A stretch of DNA of 47,967 bases from Streptomyces bohaiensis (GTDB lineage Bacteria > Actinomycetota > Actinomycetes > Streptomycetales > Streptomycetaceae). Position numbers and translations under genes: made by a program. Positions 7,890 through 47,888 of the stretch are shown here, one piece after another. The notes under the pieces were generated by a model, which saw only the letters and a program-made list of their open reading frames with translations, searched no databases and was not told where the DNA came from. Every line of letters begins with the position of its first letter. The stretch's first letter is position 1. Where the stretch lies: positions 1 to 47,967 of the forward strand of contig NZ_JAAVJC010000011.1 of the NCBI RefSeq assembly GCF_012033785.1, in the 5' to 3' direction.

Positions 7890-7959
7890 CCCCCGAGGGC
7901 CGGATCGACGGCCCTCGCTCCGGCAGCACCGCAGCGGAACGCCGGAGCAGCACATCCCC

Positions 7960-11191: not shown

Positions 11192-11238
11192 GGTCGGTCA
11201 CCTCCTCGGCGGTGCGGGGGCGGGTGGGGCGGTCGTTC

Positions 11239-11628: not shown

Positions 11629-11670
11629 GGCCGTCTCCTCATCGTCCGGTCGGGGCGCCCCTGGCGCCCG

Positions 11671-11925: not shown

Positions 11926-12025
11926 GTCGCCTCCCGTCGTTGGTGGCCGGCGGGCGGCCGCCCGCCCGGGGGCTGCTCGCCCCCGGGCTGCACGGCTGCG
12001 GTCGTCGGCGTCGGACGCGTCGGCG

Positions 12026-13179: not shown

Positions 13180-13228
13180 GTCGTACTCCTTCGTTCGTCG
13201 GGCTGCCTCGCGGGCGGCCGCGGCGCCG

Positions 13229-13516
13229 TCAGCGGCGCCGTTCGACCTCGCCGCGGCTGTAGCGGCGCACCATCTCGTACTCCAGGAGCAGGCCCTGGTG
13301 GTCGAGGTCGACCCGGTAGGTGGCCATGACACTGGTGGTGGGCGGTACGCGTTCCAGCTCCAGGACCTCCACCTGGGCGGTCCAGCCGTCGTCGGTCCGC
13401 CGGACCGAGGAGACCGACTGGGCCTCGCGGTCCAGGAGCATCGCGAGTTCACTCGCCGCCTGCTGCACGATCTGCGACACCGGGAGGCGTCCGCCGCTCT
13501 TCTCGCTCTCGGTCAT
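13229..13516 (-). CDS. gvpO: Gas vesicle protein GvpO
   Basis: A 95-aa GvpO: KSGGRLPVSQIVQQAASELA, then VEVLELERVPPTTSVMATYR and LLLEYEMVRRYSRGEVERR. In haloarchaea and actinomycetes GvpO is the first gene of the cluster and is proposed to control or chaperone GvpA expression. The ATG at 13516 begins a compact family-length protein; upstream codons in the same frame have no domain content. Confidence 0.9.
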   Translation of the reverse strand: MTESEKSGGRLPVSQIVQQAASELAMLLDREAQSVSSVRRTDDGWTAQVEVLELERVPPTTSVMATYRVDLDHQGLLLEYEMVRRYSRGEVERRR

Positions 13517-27486: not shown

Positions 27487-28062
27487 TCAGCCGGCCTCGG
27501 CGACGGCCGTGGCCTCGCCGGTGACCCGCACGCTGGAGGTGAAGACGGAGGAGAACAGCGGCCGGTAGTCGACCAGGACCTGCACGACGACCTGGGTCTC
27601 GCTGGTGCGGGCACGGACGCAGTGGGCGCCGGAGACCTCGGCGCTGGTGAGGTCGTAGTGGCGGACGAACTCCCGGACCCGGGCGTCGCAGTTGGCGGTG
27701 TTGATCGGGGCTCCGCCGGCGCCGGCGCGGATCGCGTCCTCGTCGAGGTCCTGCGCGGCGTACCGGGCGGCCTGCTCCGCGATGTCGGCGGCGCGTTCCC
27801 GGTTGGAGATCGCAAGACCGCCGTCGACGACGAACGCGGCGAGAGCAATGACGGTCAGCGCGAAGACCACGACCAGGATGGCCGCCGAGCCGCGGTCGCC
27901 GCCGCCTCCGCGGTCGTGCCGGCCGCGCGCACGGGCGCCGGGGGACGCCCCCCGGTCTCCGGCCGGCGCGGCGGCGGGGGCAGGAGCCGTGGCGAGAGGA
28001 GACGTGGTGGCGAGAGGAGACGCGGTGGCGCGGGGCGGCGCGGGGCGCGCGGGGGCGGTCAT
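27487..28062 (-). CDS. TadG-like pilus assembly protein
   Basis: This 191-aa protein has a disordered Ala/Pro/Arg N-terminus, then a class III-like prepilin segment RGSAAILVVVFALTVIALAA (~59-78), and an extracellular domain. It lacks the Glu at +5 typical of Flp and TadE, as in TadG-like proteins. ANCDARVREFVRHYDLT and SGAHCVRART supply two cysteines that may bridge. The ATG overlaps the stop of the TadE-like gene by 4 nt. Repeated SPLATx units in the N-terminus come from short direct DNA repeats near 27990-28030. Confidence 0.78.
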   Translation of the reverse strand: MTAPARPAPPRATASPLATTSPLATAPAPAAAPAGDRGASPGARARGRHDRGGGGDRGSAAILVVVFALTVIALAAFVVDGGLAISNRERAADIAEQAARYAAQDLDEDAIRAGAGGAPINTANCDARVREFVRHYDLTSAEVSGAHCVRARTSETQVVVQVLVDYRPLFSSVFTSSVRVTGEATAVAEAG

Positions 28063-28502
28063 CCGACCCGCCGATAGGGGTCGATGGGTGCGACGGAGGT
28101 GCCACTGACGCGGTTGACGGTCGGCAGGCCCACGAGGTGCATGCCCTGCACCTCGCACTCCACGCGGACGACGAACAGGCCGCCCTCGCTGAAGTCCGTT
28201 CCGCCGAGGAACGGCCCGCTCCACGAGGAGCAGACGTCCTTGAGCTGGTCCGCCAGCACCGCGGCGGCCTGCGCCCGGCCCGTGGCCTGGTCGCGGGCGA
28301 GCGAGCCGGCGCGTGCGGCGTCACGGGCGGCGCCGTCGACGGCGGCGCGCGCGGAGACCTGGTTGCCGAGGACGAACAGCACCAGGATGAACAGGATCAT
28401 GAGCGGTGCGAGCAGCACGACCTCGACCGCGCTGATGCCCCGGTCGCGGTCCTGCCGCTGCCAAAGGCGCGTCGGGCGCACCGCTGCTCCTGTGTCACGC
28501 AC
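28059..28502 (-). CDS. TadE-like pseudopilin
   Basis: A 147-aa pilin-like protein. DRGISAVEVVLLAPLMILFI is a class III prepilin motif with Glu at +5 after the predicted Gly cleavage site, followed by a hydrophobic helix and the ARAAVDGAARDAARAGSLAR segment usual for TadE/TadF proteins. The C-terminal domain has two Cys (KDVCSSW, RVECEVQ). Its GTG lies 6 nt after the previous stop, and its own stop overlaps the next gene by 4 nt. Confidence 0.82.
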   Translation of the reverse strand: MRDTGAAVRPTRLWQRQDRDRGISAVEVVLLAPLMILFILVLFVLGNQVSARAAVDGAARDAARAGSLARDQATGRAQAAAVLADQLKDVCSSWSGPFLGGTDFSEGGLFVVRVECEVQGMHLVGLPTVNRVSGTSVAPIDPYRRVG

Positions 28503-28508
28503 GGTGTG

Positions 28509-29063
28509 TCACCCCCCGTCCGGTACGAACCGTTCGACCGGCCCCTCGGAGACCGCGGTGACCCGCAGCGACATCCCCGGCAGGATCGCCGGCGCGTCCC
28601 CGGTGACGGTGACGCTGACCATGTCGCCGTTGCGGCCGACCGGTACCGAGACGTTGGAGAGCAGCCCGGGGCCCGCCAACTGGCGCACGTAGTCGCGGGC
28701 CTTGCCGCGGGCGCTGTCCTGCCAGCCCGCGGAGACGTCCGCCTCGCGGCGGGCCTCGCGGGCGCCGGCCTGGGCCGCCGCCTTGGCGACATCGGCCGCG
28801 AACGAGTACAGCGCGAACTGCACCGCGCCGAAGATCAGGAAGAACATGATCGGCGTCAGCATCACGAACTCGACGGCGGAGGCCCCGGAGTCGTCGCGCA
28901 GCGCGGCACGGAACCGTGCCGCCCGGCCGTCGCGGTCCGATGCCGGACGGTCGGCCGCCCCCGGGCGCACCGGTCCGCGGGGCCGGGCGCGGTGCTCGCC
29001 GGTCCCGGGCGGACGGTGGGCCGAGCCGCGGGCGCGGCGCGGGGCGGTGACCGGTGACGGCAC
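28509..29063 (-). CDS. TadE-like pseudopilin
   Basis: This 184-aa protein has DSGASAVEFVMLTPIMFFLI, i.e. a Gly cleavage site, Glu at +5 and a hydrophobic helix, followed by AADVAKAAAQAGAREARREA and a small beta domain. The ~60-residue N-terminal part is Arg/Pro-rich and would be removed on maturation. No ATG is present. The GTG overlapping the flp stop (TAGTG) gives VPSPVTAPRR and is the only sensible start. Confidence 0.8.
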   Translation of the reverse strand: MPSPVTAPRRARGSAHRPPGTGEHRARPRGPVRPGAADRPASDRDGRAARFRAALRDDSGASAVEFVMLTPIMFFLIFGAVQFALYSFAADVAKAAAQAGAREARREADVSAGWQDSARGKARDYVRQLAGPGLLSNVSVPVGRNGDMVSVTVTGDAPAILPGMSLRVTAVSEGPVERFVPDGG

Positions 29064-29311
29064 TAGCAGTTGCCGCTCTGGTTGCTGGCGCCGGCGATGC
29101 AGTCCTGCACGTCGTTGGCCTTGGAGGTGAGGGCGTTGGAGATCACGAAGCCGACGGCGAGCACGATGCCGACGACCACGGCGGCGATGACGACCCATTC
29201 GATGGCCGACGCCCCGCGGTCCTCGGCCGCCCGTGCGCGCTGGAGCCGGGTGCGCAGTGCCGCCTGTAGATAGCCGATCGCGGGGTGCGAGAACCCCATG
29301 GAGTGACGCAT
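29063..29311 (-). CDS. flp: Flp/Fap-type pilin (major Tad pilin)
   Basis: This 82-aa pilin has a leader of ~33 residues ending RG, then ASAIEWVVIAAVVVGIVLAV with Glu at +5 and Trp at +6 (Tyr or Phe in most Flp proteins). The short mature C-terminus has two Cys (DCIAGA and final GNC), which could form a disulfide. It is the structural subunit of the Tad pilus. The start follows AAAGGAAA. A second ATG five codons on would shorten the leader. Confidence 0.88.
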   Translation of the reverse strand: MRHSMGFSHPAIGYLQAALRTRLQRARAAEDRGASAIEWVVIAAVVVGIVLAVGFVISNALTSKANDVQDCIAGASNQSGNC

Positions 29312-29340
29312 GTCGTTTCCTTTCCCGTTCCGGGCCGGCG

Positions 29341-30288
29341 TCAGAAGCCGCCGAAGACCCGCATGCCTGCCGGATAGATGAGGAACACCAGGAATCCCGC
29401 GCAGAGCAGGAGCTGGGCGATGAGCATGGACTGGGACTTCTCCCCCGCGCCGCCCTCGATCTCCGCCATCTCCCTGCCGCGCATGGTCTCGGCACGTGCT
29501 CCGAGGCTGTCGCGGACCTTGGCGCCGTCGTCGGCGACCAGGGCGAGGGAGTTGGACAGGTCGCGCAGTTCCTCGACCCCCACCTCGTCCCCGAGCTTAC
29601 CGAGGGCCTGCCACTGGGTGATGCCGGTGATCCGGGCGTCCGCCAGGGCGGTGCGGATCCGCATCAGCGCCCAGCCGTCGCTGACCTCGGACGCGGCCTT
29701 CAGCGCCTCGGGGAGCCCCCGGCCGCCCGCCAGGCTCATGGCGACCAGGTCGAGGTAGGCGGCGACCACCCGCCGGAAGTCGCGGCGCTTGGCGGCGGCG
29801 TCGCGGCGCACCTCCAGGTCGGGGAGGAAGAAGAACAGCGCCGCGAAGGCGAGCGAGAGCCAGACGGGGACGAAGGGGCTGCTGCCGACGCCGAGGAGGT
29901 GGATGCCGGTGAAGACGGCGGGGCCGAAGATCAGACCCGCGGCGGCGAGCCCGAGCTTGGTCGCGAGGAAGTTCTCCCAGCTGCGGTCCAGCAACGCCAG
30001 GTCGGCGCGGAGCGACCGCTGCACCCAGCCGCGCCGCAGGTACGCCTCGGCCAGCCACTCGCCCGACCGGTCGCGCAGCGCGTCGAGCCGGGAGCGCCGC
30101 TGCTCGCCGGCGGCGGAGCGGGCCGCGGGAACGGCGAAGGCGTGGCCGCCGCGGGCGCGGACCGCGTCCACCCGGTGGATGGTGAGTACGGCGCCGCGGC
30201 GGGTGGGCACCAGCGCCCTGACCAGGGCGTAGACACCGAGGCCGAGCACGGCGCCGACGATGACGGCGGAGGTGACCGTGGAGTTCAT
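29341..30288 (-). CDS. tadC: Tad secretion platform protein TadC
   Basis: A 315-aa type II secretion F-family inner-membrane protein. It has an N-terminal membrane helix, a helix pair around 110-160 (LGLAAAGLIFGPAVFTGIHL, SLAFAALFFFLPDLEV), the cytoplasmic F domain (YLDLVAMSLAGGRGLPEALK, LSNSLALVADDGAKVRDSLG) and a C-terminal helix (LIAQLLLCAGFLVFLIYPAG). It forms the platform with TadB, onto which CpaF docks. It lies directly before flp. Confidence 0.9.
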   Translation of the reverse strand: MNSTVTSAVIVGAVLGLGVYALVRALVPTRRGAVLTIHRVDAVRARGGHAFAVPAARSAAGEQRRSRLDALRDRSGEWLAEAYLRRGWVQRSLRADLALLDRSWENFLATKLGLAAAGLIFGPAVFTGIHLLGVGSSPFVPVWLSLAFAALFFFLPDLEVRRDAAAKRRDFRRVVAAYLDLVAMSLAGGRGLPEALKAASEVSDGWALMRIRTALADARITGITQWQALGKLGDEVGVEELRDLSNSLALVADDGAKVRDSLGARAETMRGREMAEIEGGAGEKSQSMLIAQLLLCAGFLVFLIYPAGMRVFGGF

Positions 30289-31241
30289 CGCCGCACCACC
30301 GGGCCCTGCTCACGTGCGGGTGCCGCGTCCGCACCGGACCGCTGGGCGTCGCGCGCCTGGGTCGCCGGGGCCGGGCGGACCATGAACCGGTCGGGGACCT
30401 CGATGCGGGAGAGGCTGCGCATCCACCAGAAGCCGAGGCCGAACAGGACGCAGACCAGGCCGAGTACGAGCTGGCCGAGGGCGTCGCCGTAGGGCTCGAC
30501 GTAGGCGGAGTTGAAGAGCGAGAGCCCCACGGGGAACGCGAGGCTGACCGCGACGACGATCTGGACGCTGCGCCGGGTGGAGGCGCGTTGCGCTGAGACC
30601 CGCTGCCGCATCTCGACCTCCTCGCGCGCCGACTTGGCCAGCGCGCCCAGCACCTCGCGCAGGCCGGGGCCGCGCAGCCGCGCGTTGAGGATGAGCGAGG
30701 CGATGATGATGTCGGCGGAGGAGTCGTCGAGTTCCTCGGCGAACTCCTGGAGGGCGTCGGGGAGGGTGGTCCGCGAACGCAGCCGGTCCACCAGGTTGTT
30801 GAGCGGCTCGCGGAGCGCGGGGGCCGCGGCGCGGGCCGAGGCCGGGATGGCCTGCTCCAGTCCGACGGCGCCGGCGATGGTGTCGCGCAGCGACTCGGTC
30901 CAGGAGGCGAGCGCCTCGACACGCGCCATCGAGGCCCGTTCCTCGGCGGCGCCGCCGAAGAGCCTGTCCCAGACGAAGGTCAGCAGCGCCGCGGCCAGTG
31001 CCGCCACCGGCCAGCCGGTGAGGACGAGGACGACCACCGCGAGGAGCACAGCGATCATGGAGCGCTGGCCGAGGAACCGGGCGATCTCCGCGCGACGGCG
31101 TTCGTCGCGGGCGATCTCGTCGGCGGTCCGGGGCGGCAGCCCGCGGAGGGCGACGACCAGCAGGGCGACGCCCCCGCCGGCGGCGAGGCCGCAGGCCAGC
31201 GCAAGCAGGGTCTGCGGCGCGAGGATCCCGGTGGTGGGCAC
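30285..31241 (-). CDS. tadB: Tad secretion platform protein TadB
   Basis: A 318-aa type II secretion F-family protein paralogous to TadC. It has two N-terminal hydrophobic stretches (LALACGLAAGGGVALLVVAL, MIAVLLAVVVLVLTGWPVAA), the cytoplasmic F domain (SWTESLRDTIAGAVGLEQAI, DIIIASLILNARLRGPGLRE) and C-terminal helices (QIVVAVSLAFPVGLSLFNSA, LGQLVLGLVCVLFGLGFWW). The stop overlaps the tadC start by ATGA. Confidence 0.9.
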   Translation of the reverse strand: MPTTGILAPQTLLALACGLAAGGGVALLVVALRGLPPRTADEIARDERRRAEIARFLGQRSMIAVLLAVVVLVLTGWPVAALAAALLTFVWDRLFGGAAEERASMARVEALASWTESLRDTIAGAVGLEQAIPASARAAAPALREPLNNLVDRLRSRTTLPDALQEFAEELDDSSADIIIASLILNARLRGPGLREVLGALAKSAREEVEMRQRVSAQRASTRRSVQIVVAVSLAFPVGLSLFNSAYVEPYGDALGQLVLGLVCVLFGLGFWWMRSLSRIEVPDRFMVRPAPATQARDAQRSGADAAPAREQGPVVRR

Positions 31242-31248
31242 GGTCGTC

Positions 31249-32550
31249 TCACCCCCACCCTGGCTGGTAGCCGAAGGCAGCGAGTTCGTCGGCGCAGGAG
31301 ATGGCGGCGTGCGCCCGCGGCACGCCGTCGGGGCCCTCGGCGAAGATCTCGCTGGACAGCACGCGGCCGTCGACGCCGTTGACCTCGCGTACGGAGGTCA
31401 CCAACCGCTGCAACCGGCCGCCGGTGGCGTAGTTGTTGCGGCGGTGGATGAAGACCACGAAGTTCACGGCACCGGCGATCAGCATCTGACTCGCCTCGAT
31501 CGGCAGCCGCTCGCTGGCCTGGAGGGCGTAGGTGGAGATGCGGTTGAACACCTCGGCCGAGCTGTTGGCGTGGATGGTGGAGAGCGAGCCGTCGTTCCCC
31601 TGCGACATGGCGTTGAGCATGGTGACGATCTCGTCGCCGAGGACCTCGCCGACGATGACGCGGGAGGGGTTCATGCGCAGGGAGCGGCGGACGAGTTCCG
31701 CCATGGAGATGTAGCCCTGGCCCTCGGAGTTGGGGAGCCGTTCCTCGAACGCCACCACGTTGGGGTGGAGTTCGGGGAACTGGTCCAGTCCGAGCTCCAG
31801 AGCCCGTTCCACCGTGATGAGGCGCTCGTCGGAGGGGATCTCGTTGGCCAGGGCGCGCAGCAGCGTGGTCTTGCCCGCGTTGGTGGAGCCGGCGATCATG
31901 ATGTTCTTGCGGGCGCGGACCGCCGCGACCAGGAAGCGGCCCATCTCCGGGGTGACGGTGCCGTTGCCGACGAGGTCGGCGAGGAAGACCTTGCCGAGGC
32001 GGGCGCGGCGGATGGACAGCGCCGGCCTGCGGGTGACGTCCATGACGGCGGAGAGTCGGGAGCCGTCGGGCAGCCGCAGGTCGAGCTGGGGGTTGGCGGC
32101 GTCGAAGGGCCGCGAGGAGAGGCCGGAGTAGGCGCCGAGCACCTGGATGAGTTCGACGAGTTCCTCGTCGGTCTCGGCGACGGGCTCACCGCGCTCCTCC
32201 CGGCCGTCGGCGTAGCCCACGAAGACCTGGTCGCACCCGTTGATGTCGATGTTCTCGATGTCGGGGTTGTCCAGGAGCGGTTGCAGCCGGCCGACGCCGA
32301 AGAGCGCCGCGTGCACCGCGGCGGCGTAGTCCTCCTCGGACTGCGCGTCCAGTGGCGCCCTGCCCTGCGAGATCTCCTCGCGGACGTACTCCTCCAGGAC
32401 CTGCGCGATGACGGCGCGCGCGTAGTGGCGCTCGTCCTCGGGGGTCATGGCGCGGATGCCGCCGGCCTGGTCGATGCGCCGCTGCTCGGCGATGCGGTCG
32501 CCGGCGTCCTGCCGGAACCGCTTGACCAGTTGGTGGTTGACGTCGGTCAC
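31249..32550 (-). CDS. cpaF: Tad pilus assembly ATPase CpaF/TadA
   Basis: This 433-aa secretion ATPase of the VirB11/GspE family energises pilus assembly. The N-terminal domain (~75-190) includes NIDINGCDQVFVGY and PQLDLRLPDGSRLSAVMDVT. The ATPase domain has Walker A AGSTNAGKTT (~221-230), an Asp-box-like segment, Walker B region VIVGEVLGDE and the His-box STIHANS. All motifs look intact. The GTG start overlaps the preceding stop by 4 nt. Confidence 0.93.
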   Translation of the reverse strand: MTDVNHQLVKRFRQDAGDRIAEQRRIDQAGGIRAMTPEDERHYARAVIAQVLEEYVREEISQGRAPLDAQSEEDYAAAVHAALFGVGRLQPLLDNPDIENIDINGCDQVFVGYADGREERGEPVAETDEELVELIQVLGAYSGLSSRPFDAANPQLDLRLPDGSRLSAVMDVTRRPALSIRRARLGKVFLADLVGNGTVTPEMGRFLVAAVRARKNIMIAGSTNAGKTTLLRALANEIPSDERLITVERALELGLDQFPELHPNVVAFEERLPNSEGQGYISMAELVRRSLRMNPSRVIVGEVLGDEIVTMLNAMSQGNDGSLSTIHANSSAEVFNRISTYALQASERLPIEASQMLIAGAVNFVVFIHRRNNYATGGRLQRLVTSVREVNGVDGRVLSSEIFAEGPDGVPRAHAAISCADELAAFGYQPGWG

Positions 32551-33605
32551 CGGTGGCCTCCGTGCGGGCCGTGGCCGGGAGCCGGGTAGCCGTACCCGTT
32601 GCCCGGTGCCGGGTAGCCGTACCCGCCGCTCGCCGGCGGTGCGGTGGGCGGGGGCCACGGCCCTCCGGGCGGCACGGGCGCGGGGGTGCGGGGACCCTGC
32701 GCGCCGTACTGCGGCGGCACCGGGGCGCGGCCGTGGGACGGCGGCGCGGCGCCGGCGGGCGGTTGCGGCGGCAGCGTCCCGACCGCGCCGGTGACGGCGG
32801 GGGCGAGCTCGCGGTAGGTCTGGTGGAGGTCGGAGACCACCTTGCGGACGGAGCGCACCAGCAGGGACTTGTCGACGCGGCCGCGGCGGCGGCCGGCCAA
32901 CTGGTCGGCGCCCGCGGCGTCCTCGGCCAGCAGTCCGGCGACGCGGGCGCCGCTGCCGGCGGCGGTCAGCATCTCGTTGACCTGGCTCGCGATCCGGCCG
33001 CCCTGGGAGGGCTCGGTGACCAGGAGCAGCCCGATCGGCGGGCGGCCGTGCTGGGCCGCGCCCCGGTGCTGCCCGTGGAGCTTGGCGCTGAGCGCGAGGG
33101 CGCGTTCGCGGGTGTGGGCGAGGTTCTCGGGCTGGGTGCGGGTGACGAGCAGCACGACGGCGGCGTGCGGCAGCAGCGCCAGCGCGGGCGAGTCCGGGCC
33201 GAGGCGGCCGCAGTCGGCGACGACGTCGGCCGCTGCCTCCTCGTGCGGGGAGCGGGCCAGCTCGGCGAACGCCTTGCCCAGGGCCCCGTACTGGCCGGAG
33301 ACGCCGGTGCCCTGGTCGGAGGAGGTGAGCCCGACGATCAGGTCGAGGCCGCCGGAGACACGCTGCGAGTGGTCCCACAGCTGCTCGGCGGCGATACCGC
33401 GGCGAGCGGTGGCGGCGAGCGACAGCAGCCCGGTGCCGGGGTCGAGCGGCCGCCCGTCCTCGCGGGCCGAGCGGTAGACGAGGTCGCCGCCGGCGGGGTC
33501 CACCTCGGCGAGCAGCGCGCGGCGCGGCCACAGCGCGGCGAGAGCCACGGCGGTGGTGGTGGCTCCGGGCGATCCCTTGTCGGCCGCCACTGCGATGAGC
33601 GCCAT
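32547..33605 (-). CDS. TadZ/CpaE-like atypical ParA-type ATPase
   Basis: This 352-aa protein of the ParA/MinD superfamily localises the Tad machine in other bacteria. The N-terminus MALIAVAADKGSPGATTTAV corresponds to the deviant Walker A KGGxGKTT, but the second Lys is replaced by Ala (GATTT), as reported for atypical TadZ proteins. VLLVTRTQPENLAHTRERAL and GRPPIGLLLVTEP follow the fold. Residues ~265-352 are a Pro/Gly/Tyr tail with repeated YGYPAPG, probably disordered. It sits between CpaB and CpaF, the normal place. Confidence 0.82.
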   Translation of the reverse strand: MALIAVAADKGSPGATTTAVALAALWPRRALLAEVDPAGGDLVYRSAREDGRPLDPGTGLLSLAATARRGIAAEQLWDHSQRVSGGLDLIVGLTSSDQGTGVSGQYGALGKAFAELARSPHEEAAADVVADCGRLGPDSPALALLPHAAVVLLVTRTQPENLAHTRERALALSAKLHGQHRGAAQHGRPPIGLLLVTEPSQGGRIASQVNEMLTAAGSGARVAGLLAEDAAGADQLAGRRRGRVDKSLLVRSVRKVVSDLHQTYRELAPAVTGAVGTLPPQPPAGAAPPSHGRAPVPPQYGAQGPRTPAPVPPGGPWPPPTAPPASGGYGYPAPGNGYGYPAPGHGPHGGHR

Positions 33606-33742
33606 CTCTCTGCTTCAGCCCCTCGACCGGGTGCTCGCCCGGCCCGTCGTCGGTGGTGTGGTGCGCGGTCGGTACGGGCACCGGCGGGTGTCCGCCGTCC
33701 CGTCGCTGGTCGCGTTCGGCTCGGCCGGGGGCCGGCCGTGGT

Positions 33743-34435
33743 TCAGTCGGCGCTGCCGGGAACGACGACGAGAGTGACGTCCCCGGTTGCAGCGGCCCGC
33801 GCGAGATCCGCCGCGTCGGAGGCGGAGACCCGCAGGGTCACGAGCCGGTCCCCGCCGCCGGCGCCGCTCTCCACCATGTGGACCTTGGCGGCGTCGACGA
33901 GGGTTCCCGACGTGCCGGTGACGGCCTCGTCCTCGCCGCTGTCCCGGCCCACCCGGTAGGCGGTCACCGTCTCGCCGGCGCTCAGCCCGGAGGGGTAGCG
34001 GCCCTGGGAGAGGCTGAGGCCGACCAGCACCTGGTCGCGGTCGAGGGTCTCCTCCGCGGTCAGCATCTCCCCCACCATGACGGTCCCCGGTACGAGGTCG
34101 ACGCTGGGGATGAGGTCCTGCTGGAGGCGTGAACGGTTGCGCCACTCGAAGTAGTTGACGGCGGAGTCCTCCGCCACGAGCACGGCGGTGATCGCGCTCT
34201 CGGGTACCGGCTGCCCCGCGGGGACGCGCTCGGTGATCTTCACGGCCTCGACCCGGTCGCCGGCCTGGATCACCAGCGTGGTGGCGCCGAGGGCACCGGC
34301 GAGGATCAGCAGCACGGCGAGCGCGGCGAGCGCGGGCTTCCGCTCCCGCGGCGGCACCGGCAGCCGATCACCCATCGCCGGTCCGGCCGCGACCGACTTC
34401 TTGGCGATCGCAGACGAACGGTCCTGGGTCTTCAC
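33743..34435 (-). CDS. CpaB/RcpC-like SAF-domain pilus protein
   Basis: This 230-aa protein has one transmembrane helix (34-57, ALAALAVLLILAGALGATTL) and a SAF domain (~62-130: VKITERVPAGQPVPESAITA, LVPGTVMVGEMLTAE). This is the topology of CpaB/RcpC, which helps stabilise the pilus channel; in monoderm bacteria there is no outer-membrane secretin. The GTG start (VKTQDRSSA) has GGGGGTGG upstream and gives a family-like length. It is the first gene of the Tad operon; 137 nt separate it from the TadZ-like gene. Confidence 0.82.
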   Translation of the reverse strand: MKTQDRSSAIAKKSVAAGPAMGDRLPVPPRERKPALAALAVLLILAGALGATTLVIQAGDRVEAVKITERVPAGQPVPESAITAVLVAEDSAVNYFEWRNRSRLQQDLIPSVDLVPGTVMVGEMLTAEETLDRDQVLVGLSLSQGRYPSGLSAGETVTAYRVGRDSGEDEAVTGTSGTLVDAAKVHMVESGAGGGDRLVTLRVSASDAADLARAAATGDVTLVVVPGSAD

Positions 34436-35419: not shown

Positions 35420-36169
35420 GTGTTCGGCAAGAAGAAGCACGATGAGTGGCCACTGACGGCGACTCTCGACTGGCGAGACATCAGGAAGTTCTCCGCCGCA
35501 CCGTACGGCGGATCAAGTGGCATCACTCCAGAGATGCGCGATCGATGCGCCGGTCTCACACCGGTCTGGGCCACGGCCGCAGAGGGATTCGTGCAGAGAT
35601 GGGGCCTGGTCGCCTACGTGGACCAGCAGGTGGAAGGAGGCACGATGGACGGCGCGTTCGGTCTGTTCACCGATCCCGAACACCTCCGCCCGATCTGTCG
35701 GCTCCTCGAGCCCGAGACGGGTGACGAGGGCAGACTCACCTACACTGCCGCCGATGAACACGGCGCCACTATCGGCACGATCACCAAAGAGCCACCCAGC
35801 CGCCGCCCCTTCAAGCACACGTGGCGTATCGGCACCCCGGGCGGCCGGATCATCCACGGCAGGAACTCGATCGCCACGAAGCAGGCACACCTTCAGGCAG
35901 CCCGCGAGACGCTGAATCCGTTCAACTTCGTTTCCACTGCGTTGGACGAAGGTGGCGGCAGCGAGATCGGCCCCAGGGGTCGTAGGCTGCTGTGGGTCGA
36001 CCCCGCCGGAGAGAACAAGCCAGTCCGCCGGTCCTACCTGATGTCCTCGCGCAGCGCCGACTTCGCCGCCATCACCGAACTGGGGGCCGCAACCATCGAC
36101 CGCCGACTCGCGCTGCTCGCCGCCGTCGCGGAGGCCCGCTCTCTGAACCTCAGCCCCTTCACGGCCTGA
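35420..36169 (+). CDS. VFGKKK-family protein, copy 1 of 5
   Basis: I do not recognise this 249-aa soluble protein family. It has no signal peptide or membrane segment. Family landmarks: VFGKKK N-terminus; LDWRDIRKFSAAP (~17-29); variable segment (~30-75); DGAFGLFTDPEHLRPICRLL (~75-95); TAADEHGATIGTITK; FKHTWRI-TPGG-IIHGRN; ATKQAHLQAARETLNPFNF; and the C-terminal SADFAAITELGAATIDRRLA then LLAAVAEARSL. The beta-rich middle and the final 'aD...lD.r.alLA' helix recall tubby/scramblase-like (LOR) folds; this is inference. GTG is chosen since all copies start there and GGGAGGGG lies 6-7 nt upstream. The most diverged C-terminal segment (NKPVRRSYLMSSR) groups with copy 2. Confidence 0.85.
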   Translation: MFGKKKHDEWPLTATLDWRDIRKFSAAPYGGSSGITPEMRDRCAGLTPVWATAAEGFVQRWGLVAYVDQQVEGGTMDGAFGLFTDPEHLRPICRLLEPETGDEGRLTYTAADEHGATIGTITKEPPSRRPFKHTWRIGTPGGRIIHGRNSIATKQAHLQAARETLNPFNFVSTALDEGGGSEIGPRGRRLLWVDPAGENKPVRRSYLMSSRSADFAAITELGAATIDRRLALLAAVAEARSLNLSPFTA

Positions 36170-36297
36170 GCTGCGCGCTGACCAACCGAAGCCGTCGCCG
36201 AATCCCCCGCCACACGCTCTGCTTCGGTGGCATGACCCCGTCGACTCGGCATACGGCAAGGTCTCCGTGCCGTTGAGCGAGGTGTCGAGCGCCTCCC

Positions 36298-37095
36298 TCA
36301 ACGGCTCGGGACTCCCTCCGTTGCCGGCCATTCCCCTCTCCGTGACAGCCTTGGGCGAGACGCCTCACTCCCGACCGAAGCGCTCTGCACGGGCGCCAGG
36401 CTGCCGTCGAGCACCATGATGCCGCTACCCACCGGCCCGGCGCCGGCGTTGGAAGGCATCCGCACGCCGGACATCTCGCCGTCAGTCGGCGCCGACGGTC
36501 GCAGCACGAGCCCGTGCGGGAACTTTCGTGCCGTGGCCACGAAGCCCCGGTACTGCGAGGAGAGCGGGTCCGTCGTACCGGCAACGAGAAGCCCGTGCCC
36601 TCCGTCCATTCCCGACCGGATCAGTGTTTCCGGAGGCTTGTCGATCCCCGTTTCGCAGACGAGTTGGGCATCGTCCGCGACCACAACGAACGGGTCGCCC
36701 GCCACAGGCGCCGGCGCCTCGGCCGGCTGACCCGCCGTTGCCTCACCCTCGATAGGGGCCGCCATTCGGCTCTCCCGTGCAGCCCCCGCAAGAGGGAACG
36801 CCTCGGGTGTGATCACCACGAGCGGTGTTCCGATCTCCCACAGACTGTCCGCCGCGCAGAGCAGCACACCGGACCGTCAGGATCTCGGTGGGCCCGCGAC
36901 CACGAAGCCCGGCCCCGAGAGCGCCAGGTTCACACCCAGCGAGCGAAGAGTCTCGCCGCCGACCCCGAGCATCGCCCGGAGCGCACCGCGCTCCTCGTCA
37001 CGGGTGTCGAGAGCGCGGGCCGCTACGTGGGGTCCTCGATGACAACAGTGCAGGAGCCCGCGGAACCCACTGCCGCCTGCCCCAAGGCGAGCCGT
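36298..37095 (-). pseudogene. FtsK/SpoIIIE-type ATPase C-terminal fragment with in-frame stop
   Basis: One minus-strand frame reads LDTRDEERGALRAMLGVGGE, TLRSLGVNLALSGPGFVVAG, then PPRS-stop-RSGVLLCAADSL and LWEIGTPLVVITPEAFPLA, PFVVVADDAQLVCETG, SGMDGGHGLLVAGTTD, GEMSGVRMPSNAGAGPVGSG. This is the last ATPase domain of actinobacterial FtsK/SpoIIIE (EccC-like) proteins. The Walker A should be GPPRSGRS; its Gly codon is TGA (36877-36879), and the following ST is changed. The frame is otherwise continuous. The N-terminal >1000 residues are absent and the 5' limit is ragged. The fragment lies antisense between copies 1 and 2 of the VFGKKK genes. Confidence 0.72.
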
Positions 37096-37195
37096 GCCAC
37101 CCTGCCGCTCCCAGGGCCGCCGCTGACGCGGAGCTGGACACTAGGCTTGCCTCAGGTGGTGCACGGGGCGCAGCCGCGGCGGGAAGGACCTTCGC

Positions 37196-37951
37196 GTGTT
37201 CGGCAAGAAGAAGCACCAGCAGCAGGGGCCGCTGGTGGCGACGCTCGACTGGCGTGACATACGGATGTTCTCGGCAGCCCCCGGCGGCGGTGATGTCGGC
37301 ATCACCACTGAGCTGCGCCGACGATGCGCCGGCCTCACGCCGGTCTGGGCCGCCCCCGCGAAAGGCATGGTCCCCCGATGGGGTTTGGCGGCCTTCGTGG
37401 ATGCGCCCGTGGAGGGGCCCAAGGCCGACGGGGCGTTCGGCCTGTTCACCGACCCCGAGTACCAACGCCCGATCTGTCGGCTGCTCGAACCCGAATCTGA
37501 CGGCGACAGCGGTCTTCGGTACACCGCCACCGACGAGCGAGGCGAGACCATCGGCACCATCACCAAGGTGGCGCCCACGCGACGGCCGTTCAAGCACACG
37601 TGGCGAATCACCACCCCGGACGGACTCAGTGTCCAGGGCAGAAACGCCTGGGCCACGAAGCAACGGCACGTCCGCGAAGCGCGTGGCTACCTGAATCCCC
37701 TCAACTACGTTGTCGGTGCGGCCGACGACAGCAGCTGGGCCACGGGCAACCGGGGCCGGGAGCTCTTCTGGGTCGATCCGGCCGACGACAGCAGACGTGC
37801 GAACACCACGTACCTGATGTCCTCGACCAGCGCTGACTTCGCCCGTCTCACAGACCAGGGGGCCGGGCTGCTCGACCGCCGACTCGCGCTGCTCGCCGTC
37901 ATCGGCGAGGCCCGGTCCCTCGACCTCAAGCCACCGACGCCTCCGGTGTGA
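37196..37951 (+). CDS. VFGKKK-family protein, copy 2 of 5
   Basis: A 251-aa member of the family: VFGKKKHQQQ start, LDWRDIRMFSAAPGGG, DGAFGLFTDPEYQRPICRLL, FKHTWRITTPDG, VQGRNAWATKQRHVREARGY and SADFARLTDQGAGLLDRRLA. It is clearly diverged from copies 3 and 4 over its whole length, especially in the segment after NPLNYVVGAADD. The GTG follows GGGAAGGAC. It is the first gene of a same-strand run (copies 2-5, ~100-130-nt spacers). Its promoter region is shared with the antisense FtsK fragment. Function unknown; family features as for copy 1. Confidence 0.85.
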   Translation: MFGKKKHQQQGPLVATLDWRDIRMFSAAPGGGDVGITTELRRRCAGLTPVWAAPAKGMVPRWGLAAFVDAPVEGPKADGAFGLFTDPEYQRPICRLLEPESDGDSGLRYTATDERGETIGTITKVAPTRRPFKHTWRITTPDGLSVQGRNAWATKQRHVREARGYLNPLNYVVGAADDSSWATGNRGRELFWVDPADDSRRANTTYLMSSTSADFARLTDQGAGLLDRRLALLAVIGEARSLDLKPPTPPV

Positions 37952-38077
37952 GCACCTCCCTGGGCGGCCACCGGTGGCGGCGCGACCCGGGGTATGTTCG
38001 CCGAGCCGATTCGCCCTCCGGTCGGAGGGCGGCGAGAGGCAGGGCTCCCCGGAGAGTCGCTGCGGGGAGGGGACGCG

Positions 38078-38821
38078 GTGTTCGGCAAGAAGAAGCAGGA
38101 CGAGGGGCCGCTGACGGCCACTCTGGACTGGCGCGACATCCGGAGGTTCACCGCGGCCCCTTTCGGCGCCTCGTACGGCATCAGCCCGGATATGTACCAT
38201 CGCTGCGCGGGCCTGAATCCGGTCTGGGCAAAGACCCCCAAGGGCCACACGCTGAAATGGGCGTTGGTGGCTTTCGTTGACCAGGAGGTGGAGGGAGAAA
38301 AGGCTGACGGGGCATTCGGGCTGTTCACCGACCCGGAGCACCTCCGGCCGATCTGCCGGCTTCTCGAGCCCGACGCCGGTAAGGACGGGAGCCTTGTCTA
38401 CACCGCTACGGACGACCGGGGCAAGACGATAGGCACCCTGACCAAGGTGCCGCCCAGTAGCCGTCTCTTCAAGCACACATGGCGTATCGACACCCCGGCA
38501 GGCCAGGTCATTCACGGCAGGAACTCTCGCGCCACCAAGCAGGCGCACCATCTGGCGGCTCGCGAGATCCTGAATCCACTCAACCACCTTTTCGGCGCCT
38601 TGGACGAGGGCACTGGCAGCGACGGTGGGCCGCGAGGCCGAAGGCTGTTCTGGATCGATCCCACCGACGAGAGCAGGCGAGCCAACAGAACATTCGTCAT
38701 GCAATCGTGCAGCGCGGACTTCGCCAGCGTCACGGACCAGGGTCCGGCGACGCTCGACCGGCGCCTCGCGCTGCTGGCTGTCATCGCGGAGGGGCGGTCA
38801 CTGCACCTGGTCGCGAGGTGA
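38078..38821 (+). CDS. VFGKKK-family protein, copy 3 of 5
   Basis: A 247-aa member starting at a GTG with GGGGAGGGG 5-6 nt upstream. It is very similar to copy 4 from about residue 75 to the end (RPICRLLEPDAGKDGSLVYT, HHLAAREILNPLNHLFGALD, GPRGRRLFWIDP, SCSADFASVTDQGPATLDRR) but differs at many positions between residues 25 and 70 (FGASYGISPDMYHRCAGLNP). Its leader, including CCGATTCGCC and GAGAGTCGCTGCGGG, resembles that of copy 1, so both may carry related control sequences. Function unknown. Confidence 0.87.
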   Translation: MFGKKKQDEGPLTATLDWRDIRRFTAAPFGASYGISPDMYHRCAGLNPVWAKTPKGHTLKWALVAFVDQEVEGEKADGAFGLFTDPEHLRPICRLLEPDAGKDGSLVYTATDDRGKTIGTLTKVPPSSRLFKHTWRIDTPAGQVIHGRNSRATKQAHHLAAREILNPLNHLFGALDEGTGSDGGPRGRRLFWIDPTDESRRANRTFVMQSCSADFASVTDQGPATLDRRLALLAVIAEGRSLHLVAR

Positions 38822-38822
38822 T

Positions 38823-38941
38823 GCGGACGCCGGGATCACCACCCGGCGGGTCCACCGCACAACACGGCCGCCGGAGGCGGAAGGGCGCCGGCGGCGCTCC
38901 TGTCCCGGCCGCCAGAGGCAGAGGCACACCACCGGAGGGGG
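38823..38941 (+). repeat. Intergenic repeat, copy A
   Basis: The spacer between family copies 3 and 4 is nearly identical to 39695-39813 (about a dozen differences or fewer over ~118 nt), including CCGCCGGAGGCGGAAGGGCG and GGCAGAGGCACACCACCGGA. It supplies the ribosome site of copy 4. Confidence 0.85.
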
Positions 38942-38947
38942 ATGAGG

Positions 38948-39694
38948 GTGTTCGGCAAGAAGAAGAAGCAGGACGAGGGGCCAGTGACGGCCACTCTGGA
39001 CTGGCGTGACATCCGGAGGTTCTCAGCGGCTCCGTACGCGGGCTCGACGGCGATCAGCCCCGAGATGCGTCAGCGATGCGCGGGGCTCACACCGATCTGG
39101 GCAATTCTTCCGAAAGGTTATCTCCAGAAGTGGGGGCTGGTGGGTTTTGTGGACCAGCCCGTGGAAGGCGACAAGGTGGACGGCGCGTTCGGGGTCTTCA
39201 CCGACCCGGAGCACCTCCGGCCGATCTGCCGGCTTCTCGAGCCCGACGCCGGTAAGGACGGCAGCCTTGTCTACACCGCCACGGACGACCAGGGCAGGAC
39301 CATAGGCACCCTGACCAAGGTGCCGCCAAGTCACCGCCCCTTCAAGCACACATGGCGTATCGAGACTCCTGCGGGTCAGATCATCCATGGCAGGAACTAT
39401 GCCGCCACCAAGCAGGCGCATCACATTGCGGCTCGCGAGATCTTGAACCCTCTCAACCACCTCTTCGGCGCTTTGGACGACGGCGGGGGCACCGAAGGCG
39501 GGCCACGAGGCCGAAGGCTCTTCTGGATCGATCCGGCGGACAACAGCAAGCGCGCCCGCAAGACGTTCGTCATGGAGTCGTGCAGCGCGGACTTCGCCAG
39601 CGTCACGGACCAGGGTCCGGCGACACTCGACCGGCGCCTCGCGCTGCTGGCTGTCATCGCGGAGGGACGGTCACTGCACCTGGGCTCGAGCTGA
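38948..39694 (+). CDS. VFGKKK-family protein, copy 4 of 5
   Basis: A 248-aa member, closest to copy 3. The GTG at 38948 is preferred to the ATG at 38942, because GGAGGGG sits 7 nt before the GTG but only 1 nt before the ATG, and every copy begins VFGKK. The variable segment reads YAGSTAISPEMRQRCAGLTP then IWAILPKGYLQKWGLVGFVD. The remainder nearly equals copy 3. The block of spacer plus gene (~870 nt) is the visible duplication unit. Function unknown. Confidence 0.87.
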   Translation: MFGKKKKQDEGPVTATLDWRDIRRFSAAPYAGSTAISPEMRQRCAGLTPIWAILPKGYLQKWGLVGFVDQPVEGDKVDGAFGVFTDPEHLRPICRLLEPDAGKDGSLVYTATDDQGRTIGTLTKVPPSHRPFKHTWRIETPAGQIIHGRNYAATKQAHHIAAREILNPLNHLFGALDDGGGTEGGPRGRRLFWIDPADNSKRARKTFVMESCSADFASVTDQGPATLDRRLALLAVIAEGRSLHLGSS

Positions 39695-39813
39695 CGCGGA
39701 CTCCGGGATCACCACCCGGCGGGTCCATCGCACGACACGGCCGCCGGAGGCGGAAGGGCGCGGGCGCCGCTCCTGCCCCGGCCGCCAGAGGCAGAGGCAC
39801 ACCACCGGAGGGA
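39695..39813 (+). repeat. Intergenic repeat, copy B
   Basis: The spacer between copies 4 and 5, the near-identical partner of 38823-38941. Confidence 0.85.
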
Positions 39814-39820
39814 GATCAGG

Positions 39821-40555
39821 GTGTTCGGCAAGAAGAGAAGGCCTTCGAAGGGACCGGCCCCGGCCACCCTGGACTGGCGGGAGATCAGAAAGTTCTGCGC
39901 GGCCGGGGACCGTGGCGGGTTCATGGTGGAGCCGGGGGTGTCTCGGACCTGTCCGGGGTCGACCGTGGTCTTCGCGACGACCGACCGGGGGACCCTGCCG
40001 AAGTGGGAAGTCACCGCGTTCGTCGATCAGCAGGTCGAGGGGGAGCCCGCTGAGGGCGCCTTCGGCCTGTTCACCGATCCCGACCATCTGCGTCCGATCT
40101 GCCGTGCCCTCGAACCCGAAGCGGCCGACGACGGCAGCCTGTCGTACACCGCGGTCGACGACCGCGGCAGCACCCTCGGCACCGTCACCAGGGTTCCGGC
40201 GTCGCACCGGCGCCTGAAGCACACCTGGCGCATCGACGCACCGGACGGCGCGGTCGTGGAGGGCAGGAACGTATGGGCCGCCCGCGGGCTGCTCACCCGG
40301 GGCCCGGGCGACCGCTTTCCCCTCGGGCATCTTGTCGGCGCCTCGGTCCCGGGCCAGGACAGCTGGACCAGAGGTCGCAGCCTCGACTGGACAACCGCCC
40401 CCGAGGACACCGGCAGGCGGGCCGACACCTCGCTGCTGATGTCGTCCACCGGCGCCGACCTTGCGTATCTCACGGAACGCGGGGCCGAGGTGCTCGATCG
40501 GCGGCTCGCGCTGCTCGCCGTGATCGCCGAGGGCCGGTCCCTGCGCCACCGGTAG
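39821..40555 (+). CDS. VFGKKK-family protein, copy 5 of 5
   Basis: A 244-aa, most divergent member: VFGKKRRPSKGPAPATLDWR, then DRGGFMVEPGVSRTCPGSTV in the variable segment, EGAFGLFTDPDHLRPICRAL, LKHTWRIDAPDG, VEGRNVWAARGLL (ATKQAH lost) and GADLAYLTERGAEVLDRRLA. Its spacer is nearly identical to that before copy 4 although the gene itself is not, so the coding parts have diverged or been exchanged faster than the spacers. The GTG follows GGAGGGAG. An 11-bp hairpin lies downstream. Function unknown. Confidence 0.85.
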   Translation: MFGKKRRPSKGPAPATLDWREIRKFCAAGDRGGFMVEPGVSRTCPGSTVVFATTDRGTLPKWEVTAFVDQQVEGEPAEGAFGLFTDPDHLRPICRALEPEAADDGSLSYTAVDDRGSTLGTVTRVPASHRRLKHTWRIDAPDGAVVEGRNVWAARGLLTRGPGDRFPLGHLVGASVPGQDSWTRGRSLDWTTAPEDTGRRADTSLLMSSTGADLAYLTERGAEVLDRRLALLAVIAEGRSLRHR

Positions 40556-40851: not shown

Positions 40852-41886
40852 GTGAGCCACGGACCGCAGCCACCCGCGGGGGACGGACCGCCCCACGGCC
40901 AGGGCCCGGACGCACCCGGCCCCGTCTCCGGGTCGCCCTACGGCGCCGCGGAGGCCGGCCGCTGGGACGGACCCGGCGAGCACACCGCGCAGCTGAGCGC
41001 GGCGAAGGACGGCGGCTCGACGTCGCACCGCACCAGGATGTCGCTGGCGATCGCCGCGGCGACGCTGATGGTCGCGGGGACCACCGTCGGCGGTGTCCTG
41101 CTGACCCGGGACGACGGTGGGGACCCGCCACCGCCGGTGGCCGCCGGCCCGGGGGCGGACGACGCGGACGCCGACGGGTCGGAGCCCGCCGGCGAGGACG
41201 ACGGCGCGGCGGACGACGCGGACGAGGACGAGCCCGACGAGGAGCGTCCCGCCGACCCGCGCGGCCCGACGGGCGGCGGCCCCGAGCCGGTCTCCGGCGA
41301 CGGCTGGCAGGTGCAGTTCCTGGCCGACCGGGACGTGGTCTACGACGTGCCCGACTCCGACGAGTGGGACGTCCCCTCCCCCGACACGATCCTGGGATGG
41401 GGCTCGAAGGAGCCCGAGGACGAGGACGGCTTCTCGACCCCGGAGTTCGTCGGACGGGGCACGGCGCTGTTCAACGACAAGGCCTGCGGGCGCTACAACA
41501 GCCGCGCGGTGACGGCCGTGACGGGCGCCCGGGGCGCCACCTCGACCGCGCAGGCGGCCGAGCACGTCGCCCACATCTACGTCAACGGTATCTTCGACCC
41601 CGACACCACCGGTGAGTACACGTTCGTCGACGCCGAGCCCTTCAGCAACGAGCAGGGCTTCGAGGGGCACATCGCCACCGGTCTCGTCACCGGCTTCGAG
41701 CCGTCCGAGGACGCCGACCCCGAGTGCGCCGCGACCAGCGGTGCCGTGGTCGCCGTGGCCTACCTCGACGGATCGGCCGACGCGCAGGTGTGGTTCGCGG
41801 TGGTGGAGCAGGAGGTGGAGGACGCGCTCGACGACGACACCCTCGCCGCCATCACCGACAGCCTCCGGCACTTCCGCACGAACTGA
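40852..41886 (+). CDS. Single-pass membrane protein, acidic linker, first of pair
   Basis: I cannot name this 344-aa protein. It has a Pro/Gly-rich cytoplasmic N-terminus (~60 aa), one membrane helix (~62-86: MSLAIAAATLMVAGTTVGGV), a ~60-residue Asp/Glu-rich linker and an ectodomain (~150-340). The ectodomain shares with its neighbour GWQVQFLADRDVVYDVPDSD, ACGRYNSRAVTAVTGARGAT, EPFSNEQGFEGHIATGLVTG, DPECAATSGAVVAVAYLDGS and a QVWFAVVEQEVEDALDDDTL helix. Two cysteines (CGRYN, PECAA) are conserved and probably bonded. The GTG start follows GAGAGGA. Such exported domains are common, uncharacterised Streptomyces proteins; no function is claimed. Confidence 0.82.
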   Translation: MSHGPQPPAGDGPPHGQGPDAPGPVSGSPYGAAEAGRWDGPGEHTAQLSAAKDGGSTSHRTRMSLAIAAATLMVAGTTVGGVLLTRDDGGDPPPPVAAGPGADDADADGSEPAGEDDGAADDADEDEPDEERPADPRGPTGGGPEPVSGDGWQVQFLADRDVVYDVPDSDEWDVPSPDTILGWGSKEPEDEDGFSTPEFVGRGTALFNDKACGRYNSRAVTAVTGARGATSTAQAAEHVAHIYVNGIFDPDTTGEYTFVDAEPFSNEQGFEGHIATGLVTGFEPSEDADPECAATSGAVVAVAYLDGSADAQVWFAVVEQEVEDALDDDTLAAITDSLRHFRTN

Positions 41887-41940: not shown

Positions 41941-42933
41941 ATGACCGACGGCCCGAACCAGACACCGCCGCCGGCCGGCCAGTACGGCAGGCCGGAGCAC
42001 CCCGGGCGTCCGGAGCCGGACGCGACGCTGGTGCCCGGGGGGTCCCCCGGGAAGGGCCGTGGCGGGCTGTCGCACGGCACGAGGATGGCGTTGGCCGTGG
42101 TGGCGGCGGTGGCGATGGTGGCGGGGACGACCGTCGCCGGTGTGCTGCTGACCGGTGGTGACGGCGGCGAGCCCGCCGTCGCCGCCCCCGGCGGGGACGA
42201 CGAGGAGAACGGGGGTGCCGAGGGCGACGGGGAGGACGTGCTCGGCGGGGGCGAGGAACCGGAGGAGACCGACGAGGAGGACGCGGAGGACCGCGGCAGC
42301 GACCCCCGCGGCTCGACCGGGCCGCCGGCCGACCCCGTCGTCGACGACTGGCAGGTGCAGGCGCTCCCCGCCCGCGACCTCGCCTACGACGTGCCGCCCG
42401 GCGAGGAGTGGGAGGTGGTCAACGCGGAGAGCTACGTCGAGTGGCGCCCGGTGATCATCAACGATGACGGCGAGGAGGAGGAGCTGCTGTACGTCGTCCG
42501 CGGCGGCGCCGTGTTCGAGGGCGGCGTCTGCGGGGCGAACTCCTCCCGGGGCGTCATCGGGATCACCGGGTCCAGGGGTTCCAGCGGCACGGAGGAGGCC
42601 GCCCGGAGCAATGCGCTGGAGTACGCGCGCGCGGTCTACGACCCCACGTTCACAGGCGAGTTGGTGATCAGCGACCCCGAGCCGTTCACCAACGACCACG
42701 GGTTCGAGGGCCACATCTCGGTGGGCGAGCTGACCGGCTTCGATCTCAAGGAGGGTCAGGACCCGGAGTGCTACGCCACCGACGCCACGGTCGTCTCCGT
42801 CGCGTACCTCGACAGCTCGCACGACGTCCAGGTGTGGCTGGCGATCCTGGACGCGGACGTGGAGGGCGAGCTGGACGAGGAGACACTCGACACGATCACT
42901 GGCAGCCTGCGCCTGCTGAGCCGGGCCGACTGA
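41941..42933 (+). CDS. Single-pass membrane protein, acidic linker, second of pair
   Basis: A 330-aa paralogue of the preceding gene, 54 nt downstream on the same strand. It has a Pro-rich N-terminus, a membrane helix (~48-72: MALAVVAAVAMVAGTTVAGV), a very acidic linker (EEPEETDEEDAED) and an ectodomain with matching motifs (DWQVQALPARDLAYDVPPGE, VCGANSSRGVIGITGSRGSS, EPFTNDHGFEGHISVGELTG, DPECYATDATVVSVAYLDSS, VWLAILDADVEGELDEETL). The ATG is preceded by GGGGGAGCAGG. The pair probably arose by tandem duplication and may be co-transcribed. The function is unknown. Confidence 0.83.
   Translation: MTDGPNQTPPPAGQYGRPEHPGRPEPDATLVPGGSPGKGRGGLSHGTRMALAVVAAVAMVAGTTVAGVLLTGGDGGEPAVAAPGGDDEENGGAEGDGEDVLGGGEEPEETDEEDAEDRGSDPRGSTGPPADPVVDDWQVQALPARDLAYDVPPGEEWEVVNAESYVEWRPVIINDDGEEEELLYVVRGGAVFEGGVCGANSSRGVIGITGSRGSSGTEEAARSNALEYARAVYDPTFTGELVISDPEPFTNDHGFEGHISVGELTGFDLKEGQDPECYATDATVVSVAYLDSSHDVQVWLAILDADVEGELDEETLDTITGSLRLLSRAD

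Positions 42934-43071: not shown

Positions 43072-47888
<4,817 letters not shown>

Follow-up and report, generated by a model that had tools for sequence, protein, structure and literature searches.

A recombining array of five paralogous genes in Streptomyces bohaiensis, a possible orphan immunity bank with remote LURP-one-related homology

The DNA analysed here is a 47,967-nt stretch of contig NZ_JAAVJC010000011.1 of Streptomyces bohaiensis (the window), which contains, at positions 35420-40555, five intact paralogous open reading frames on the + strand, g1 to g5, of 244-251 codons. Together with their relatives in other Streptomyces, these genes are referred to as the family. The explanation that we favour, tentatively and by analogy, is that the family proteins are soluble partners, probably immunity proteins, of effectors of a type designated p480, and that in S. 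bohaiensis they may form an orphan, recombining bank resembling the esaG and tipC arrays. An earlier reading of the window, made from the sequence only, had noticed the array; the candidate effector partner found beside the family elsewhere and the remote likeness to LURP-one-related (LOR)/Tubby-like proteins go beyond it.

The surroundings of the family in other genomes point to secretion. All the family matches at 1e-20 outside the two genomes with arrays were compared, i.e. 24 loci (L090-L113; L114 and L100 lie on one contig and were counted once), and the controls were 20 stretches of 20 kb placed at round coordinates in eleven of these genomes. Genes for EccC and WXG100 proteins were present at 7/24 family loci and in 0/20 control stretches. 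The same figures were obtained for Tad genes (7/24 and 0/20), two loci having both Tad and EccC/WXG100. The conserved gene p480, encoding about 480 aa, was found at 10/24 family loci and again in none of the 20 controls, and 8/24 loci had none of EccC, WXG100, Tad or p480. In all ten paired loci the family gene and p480 are separated by 64-186 bp, the family gene preceding p480 on the same strand in 8/10, following it in one (L100) and converging with it in one (L108). Four of these pairs (L099, L101, L102, L108) have no EccC, WXG100 or Tad marker within 20 kb, and the pair therefore seems to travel as a unit.

The p480 alignment (A6) has 10 rows and excludes the p480 of L096, which is interrupted by one stop. 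With p480 as the query, 11/199 genomes matched at 1e-20. Copies spanning the model were present in four of the 11 (G153, G192, G196, G131), namely five near full-length copies and, in G196, a second, shorter one. Of these six, four are located beside a family gene, and two (that of G131 in L135, and the second G196 copy in L098) beside a different gene, c56. In the remaining seven genomes the match covers mainly the last ~110-190 residues, preceded in some by scattered weaker matches. In L138-L140 and L142 this C-terminal part lies, as judged by eye, behind a WXG-like N-terminus, and the gene order is p480-type gene, c56 (~200 aa), then an EspG-like gene; on the latter, the Pfam EspG model gave E 6e-4, below the cut-off, for the L107 homologue and no match for the one of L139. 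When all 24 p480-type genes or pieces are considered (25 rows, because the stop causes the L096 gene to be counted twice), a family gene lies within 200 bp of 10 and c56 within 200 bp of 11; no p480-type gene has both neighbours, and three have neither (two in L100, one in L107); the two paired sets are not independent, one having been gathered via the family and the other via p480. In 11/11 cases c56 follows p480 on the same strand, and in L091 a c56-like gene stands on the far side of the family gene. Homology between c56 and the family was considered and rejected (probability <=0.3). Conserved hydrophobic Gly/Ala-rich segments occur in p480, which may be regarded as a candidate type VII secretion system (T7SS) effector whose C-terminal part is hydrophobic and rich in Gly and Ala. 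No p480 was found in the S. bohaiensis and S. lonarensis genomes at E 0.01, nor any p480-type gene within the window, and hence no candidate effector stands beside any array copy.

Three further observations concern these genes. L135-L143 display a recurrent module made of a p480-type gene (in some with the WXG-like N-terminus), c56 and mostly then the EspG-like gene, and the pieces of it that were tested have no Pfam name. In L107 a second p480 piece (6564-8168) is followed by a small membrane-looking gene, c22, which could be a membrane partner and recurs in four stretches, two of them on one contig. Finally, contig C83 of G495 (21.9 kb), to which both L100 and L114 belong, carries several p480 and family copies that are broken or incomplete, like a region in which cassettes are shuffled.

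The array itself is maintained and recombining. The sister species S. lonarensis (G113, stretch L021) has four copies compared with five in S. bohaiensis, so copy number varies between species, and the family is neither an invariant array nor an always single-copy housekeeping gene, the two findings that would have spoken against the copy-number pressure proposed in the sequence-only reading. In an unrooted tree, from which the fragmentary family pieces of L092, L100 and L114 were excluded, all nine copies from the two species group together (support 100/100) on a long branch. Since g1 falls inside this clade with g3/g4 (support 96/94), the difference is more simply read as a loss of g1 in S. 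lonarensis. All nine copies are open frames, and the array orthologues are under purifying selection (dN/dS, the ratio of nonsynonymous to synonymous substitution rates, is 0.33, 0.13, 0.24 and 0.24 for copies 2-5). Copy 2 of S. lonarensis opens with a leucine codon (L021:6254-6256, LFGKK), while the others open with GTG.

Copies 3 and 4 are homogenised by gene conversion over their C-terminal two thirds, whereas an old N-terminal difference between them is spared. In the alignment of these copies, 46 sites group the orthologues, 45 of them before position 300, and six sites group the paralogues within species, five of them after position 300; in S. lonarensis the two copies share an identical run of 473 bp. 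The synonymous divergence (dS) between copies 3 and 4 over codons 26-80 is 1.5 in the window and 2.1 in S. lonarensis, and afterwards falls to 0.31 and 0.008, respectively, which is the pattern of a conversion that leaves the N-terminal segment untouched. The spacers that follow copies 3 and 4 are also similar to each other (93% identical in the window, 92% in S. lonarensis). Four other copy pairs were examined and gave no conversion signal, and no positive selection was seen on the N-terminal segment between orthologues (highest dN/dS 0.88, for g2 over 55 codons).

The five proteins fit no family of Pfam or NCBIfam (one weak Pfam match, E 0.15), and in this sense the family is indeed unrecognised, as had been stated; this no longer holds for remote homology. 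The family profile (A2, 16 rows) was built from the five window proteins and 11 relatives, and an intermediate alignment (A5, nine rows) from a second circle of actinobacterial proteins. With hhalign, A2 matched A5 with probability 98.7 and score 107.7 over 170 columns, and A5 matched A4, an alignment of 12 proteins passing the Pfam LOR cut-off (three of 15 LOR matches were excluded), with probability 97.1 and score 72.9 over 159 columns; the maxima of 60 column-shuffled comparisons per alignment pair were 17.9 and 16.8, respectively. In turn, the A4 profile matches the Arabidopsis LOR structure 1zxu with E 1.4e-14. The LOR fold is a closed beta-barrel surrounding a C-terminal hydrophobic helix. 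The family is thus remotely homologous to the LOR superfamily, a link made only through the intermediate A5. The likeness to LOR (PF04525; 1zxu/2q4m) is a profile link over 159-170 columns that includes the region of the C-terminal hydrophobic helix; the differences are a weak direct comparison, an N-terminal part of the family's own, and the lack of any match of the Pfam LOR model (PF04525) among the five window proteins and the 11 relatives of A2. The distant intermediate L056 gave a Pfam LOR E of 0.0057, below the cut-off. In searches of the PDB, A2 gave a single match (E 0.84) and A5 only antibody chains (best E 0.065). Matches to TruB_C (E 1.5e-4 for one A2 member, 7e-4 for L056) were taken as chance. 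In the second-circle relatives of L037-L044, L046-L049 and L051 (E ~3e-13 to 9e-10 with A2), an apparent membrane segment was seen by eye in the middle of the protein.

The window proteins have no evident membrane segment, the mean hydropathy of the best 19-residue window being at most 1.03 in all five. The description of the array as five tandem soluble paralogues stands, apart from small exceptions to the motifs quoted with it (GAFGVFTDP in g4, EGAFG in g5, EYQRPICR in g2). Identities to g1 are 63% (g2), 66% (g3), 68% (g4) and 48% (g5), and g3 and g4 are 83% identical. A purine-rich stretch similar to GGAGG or GAAGGA precedes all five GTG starts. No family match beyond g1-g5 was found in the S. 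bohaiensis genome at E 1.

The family is patchily distributed. With g3 as the query, 12/199 Streptomyces genomes matched at 1e-5, S. bohaiensis included; with the A2 profile, 41/199 Streptomyces genomes matched at 1e-5 and 21/392 genomes at 1e-20, and a phylum-wide search gave 7/296 genomes at 1e-5, three of the seven from Streptomyces. A tandem array of whole copies occurs in 2/392 genomes, those of S. bohaiensis and S. lonarensis. Other Streptomyces mostly have one family copy per locus; G153, G192, G545 and G644 have two or three copies each, at separate loci, and G495 has three family pieces, of which two are partial, on a single contig. Among the genomes of a further 120 relatives, a match at 1e-30 was obtained in S. 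bohaiensis only. Plasmids searched by tblastn with one family protein and one p480, and viral contigs searched with A2, gave no match. The term accessory DNA, applied to the locus in the sequence-only reading, is apt only as regards this patchy distribution; the locus itself is syntenic in S. lonarensis, where the flanks align at ~89-90% and both g1 and the EccC relic are missing.

This relic, between g1 and g2 (Table 1), is the FtsK/EccC-type fragment reported previously; it is real, although degraded, with 47% identity to residues 1277-1491 (the last ATPase part) of the full EccC in L098 and an internal TGA. A second, possible fragment (Table 1) rests on a tblastn match of E 4e-5 against about 4 kb. 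Four further EccC-like genes with long open frames are present in the S. bohaiensis genome (contigs C528, C88, C535 and C13), so that this copy has decayed while others remain. In G631 (L107), a single 20-kb stretch contains homologues of both c27 and the DUF3686 gene of the window, a 1504-aa EccC, WXG100 genes, p480 and one family gene. Because the c27 and DUF3686 homologues share that stretch with EccC, WXG100 genes and p480, the window locus probably descends from a T7SS locus similar to L107.

Table 1. Features of the array and of the adjoining part of the window (positions are those of the window).
Feature	Position	Strand	Remarks
Tad-type pilus operon	27487-34435	-	divergent from the array; names other than TadA and TadB by recognition
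TadB	30285-31241	-	T2SSF match
TadA ATPase	31249-32550	-	T2SSE match
g1, paralogue 1	35420-36169	+	249 aa; starts with GTG, an alternative ATG lying two codons before it; missing in S. lonarensis
EccC (T7SS ATPase) relic, C-terminal ATPase part	36376-37020	-	interrupted by one TGA; the greater part of the gene is gone
Possible N-terminal fragment of the same EccC, other frame	36969-37226	-	overlaps the g2 start; weak tblastn match
g2, paralogue 2	37196-37951	+	251 aa; 91% identical to the S. lonarensis orthologue
g3, paralogue 3	38078-38821	+	247 aa; residues ~24-78 anciently different from g4, remainder homogenised
Intergenic repeat g3-g4	38822-38941	.	93% identity to the g4-g5 spacer
g4, paralogue 4	38948-39694	+	248 aa; ATG alternative at 38942
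Intergenic repeat g4-g5	39695-39820	.	
g5, most divergent paralogue	39821-40555	+	244 aa
c27, membrane-anchored-looking protein	40852-41886	+	in L107 a homologue lies next to EccC, p480 and a family gene
c28, DUF3686 ATPase	43245-47888	-	homologue in L107; anchors synteny with a T7SS locus

Elsewhere in the window, c27 is the first of two tandem membrane-anchored-looking genes (40852-41886 and 41941-42933), the second of which weakly matches NCBIfam CU044_5270 (3.3e-4, below the cut-off). A 1089-aa protein with a BTAD regulatory domain (24138-27407, - strand) adjoins the Tad operon and has homologues near Tad in L110 and L111. The protein encoded at 20422-22995 (+ strand), with Exo_endo_phos domains and a lamin-tail-like stretch, is probably a secreted nuclease, and a run of minus-strand genes at 9303-13516 resembles, as recognised by eye, a gas-vesicle (gvp) cluster.

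T7SS-mediated antagonism is best worked out in Firmicutes. There, as described by Garrett et al. (PMC9484751), esaG of S. aureus and tipC of Streptococcus form tandem arrays of non-identical T7SSb immunity paralogues, which recombine through conserved blocks, have similar spacers, lose and gain copies and keep variable segments; in S. aureus, the toxin gene precedes the first esaG. The window array is likewise made of tandem, non-identical paralogues, with recombination (copies 3 and 4), similar spacers and copy-number change, whereas it belongs to another phylum and another protein family, only a relic of its machinery gene survives, without any candidate effector. As regards mechanism, the nearest analogue that has been worked out is EsxX (PMC12744356), where soluble ExiAB, which are DUF5085, GyrI-like proteins, sequester the glycine zipper of the effector's C-terminus; Lap targeting factors are encoded upstream of EsxX and immunity genes downstream, and the orphan immunity genes of non-producers encode the membrane proteins ExiCD. 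What would be shared, under the present proposal, is a T7SS effector that has a hydrophobic, Gly-rich C-terminus and a soluble partner in the cytosol, together with the occurrence of orphan immunity genes; in contrast, the family is not DUF5085, the zipper motif of p480 does not exceed composition, and p480 is only a candidate toxin. The WXG/LXG-led actinomycete type VII effector AaEAS, with its adjacent small partner gene (putative immunity), is similar in gene layout (PMC12691689); it is, however, an enzymatic toxin.

By this analogy, a family protein would bind the C-terminal part of its effector in the cytosol and hold it inactive, perhaps serving also as a chaperone before secretion, and export by the T7SS would strip it off, as in EsxX/ExiAB. 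In the S. bohaiensis lineage the local T7SS ATPase gene has decayed, no p480 is found, and the family gene has been duplicated into a five-copy orphan array, which may protect against effectors from related strains; the conversion that keeps each N-terminal segment of copies 3 and 4 would then spare specificity. That p480 is a secreted toxin, bound and neutralised by the family protein, is what we infer. Of the sequence-only reading, the array, the former secretion context (the EccC relic, and EccC with WXG100 at the relatives' loci), the variation in copy number, here with gene conversion, and, as far as p480-type genes are concerned, the lack of a toxin gene in the window have been substantiated, and a search beside homologues for toxins and WXG100 proteins has yielded both WXG100 genes and a candidate effector. 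The more complete proposal, that a LOR/Tubby-like fold was recruited as a Streptomyces T7SS immunity family exchangeable with c56, and that its amplification then gave an orphan array whose specificity segment is left alone by conversion, is doubtful when taken as a whole.

Several results weigh against the immunity-partner interpretation. Family genes without p480 beside them account for 14/24 loci, five of which lie at the 3' end of a Tad operon or close to it, one near EccC only and eight without any marker, and the control sample is small, with 20 stretches only. As regards the effector, p480 (A6) has no relative in Pfam or the PDB, and the Pfam gap counts here; the N-terminus of the L139 protein received no WXG100 or LXG call (best DUF6033, E 0.018); and glycine-zipper motifs were not above composition in 17/18 p480 sequences at p 0.05 (0.048 in one sequence, 0.060 and 0.072 in two others). 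The distances of family and p480 proteins correlate weakly and without specificity (r 0.50, p 0.03, nine pairs, with the p480 of L096 and the second p480 of L098 left out), and in the five loci with the EspG-like gene c16 the correlation is 0.19 between family and p480 and 0.86 between p480 and c16. As regards the array, its clade is separated by the long branch from all 24 other family members. As regards the fold, the direct comparison of A2 with A4 gave a probability of only 14% (score 28.0, shuffle maximum 16.7) and a search of the PDB with A2 and A5 combined (A7) found no LOR structure, so that the LOR link is transitive; the AlphaFold model built from nine sequences (window and L021) was unusable, with a mean predicted local distance difference test score of 42. 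Finally, the predominantly upstream position of the family gene (8/10) is the one that Lap targeting factors occupy with respect to EsxX.

This last point leads to the strongest rival, in which the family protein, instead of conferring immunity, delivers p480-type substrates to the T7SS as a targeting factor or chaperone, and the array is what is left of the substrate module. In addition to the upstream, same-strand position, the presence of EspG-like (c16) and WXG100 (c18) genes at 6/24 loci fits this idea, and c56, invariably downstream of p480, could then be the immunity gene. Nevertheless, a chaperone deprived of its substrate should decay, and the copies are instead intact, multiplied and under purifying selection in a genome where no p480 was found; moreover, c56 is missing from the stretches of 7/10 family-p480 loci (L114 counted with L100), and family genes lacking an adjacent p480 are common. 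We consider this rival unlikely, though by no means negligible.

The family could otherwise be a general LOR-type regulator or scaffold, linked to membranes or lipids and serving envelope machines such as Tad and the T7SS, with the array providing dosage. Eukaryotic LOR/Tubby-like relatives are described as membrane-tethered, which counts in its favour, as does the position of the family gene at or near the 3' end of the Tad operon in 5/24 loci: in four it is the last gene of the operon, on the same strand, and in the fifth two genes lie between. The window array, too, abuts a Tad operon; however, it is divergent from it, does not hold the last-gene position, and falls outside the Tad-linked group of the tree. 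The four family-p480 pairs in stretches free of Tad and T7SS markers, and the copy-specific N-terminal segments, which are unexpected under pure dosage, also argue against this reading, and it appears rather improbable to us.

If the array had no function today and were simply a neutral tandem duplication within a locus in decay, this would agree with the wrecked EccC next to the array, with the copy missing in S. lonarensis and with the GC content at third codon positions of the array (0.81-0.88, below many neighbouring genes), but this reading is very unlikely given nine open copies in two species with orthologue dN/dS of 0.13-0.33. Least probable of all, and scarcely credible, is a specificity bank whose members act inside the cell as sensors or in antiphage defence: it would be suited by tandem paralogues that share a homogenised body and differ in an old segment specific to each copy, yet PADLOC gave no credible match (the sole one, E 0.031, on one relative), no Pfam effector domain is present and the neighbours point to secretion.

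Effector-immunity pairs of Streptomyces T7SS loci are, to our knowledge, little known. In a literature search whose scope excluded most subscription journals, the terms LURP-one and Streptomyces returned, judging by the abstracts, only plant work and nothing of this kind; tubby combined with immunity protein, toxin and polymorphic returned nothing; and for effector-immunity in connection with Streptomyces T7SS or EspG, no such Streptomyces pair appeared by title among the matches listed. Orphan and tandem immunity arrays are already known in Firmicutes; what would be new, if the immunity reading holds, is the LOR-like family and the actinobacterial setting. The analysis supplies a testable pair, the family protein and p480, together with an alternative partner, c56, and an orphan array undergoing conversion, and it suggests a job that bacterial LOR/Tubby-like proteins may perform.

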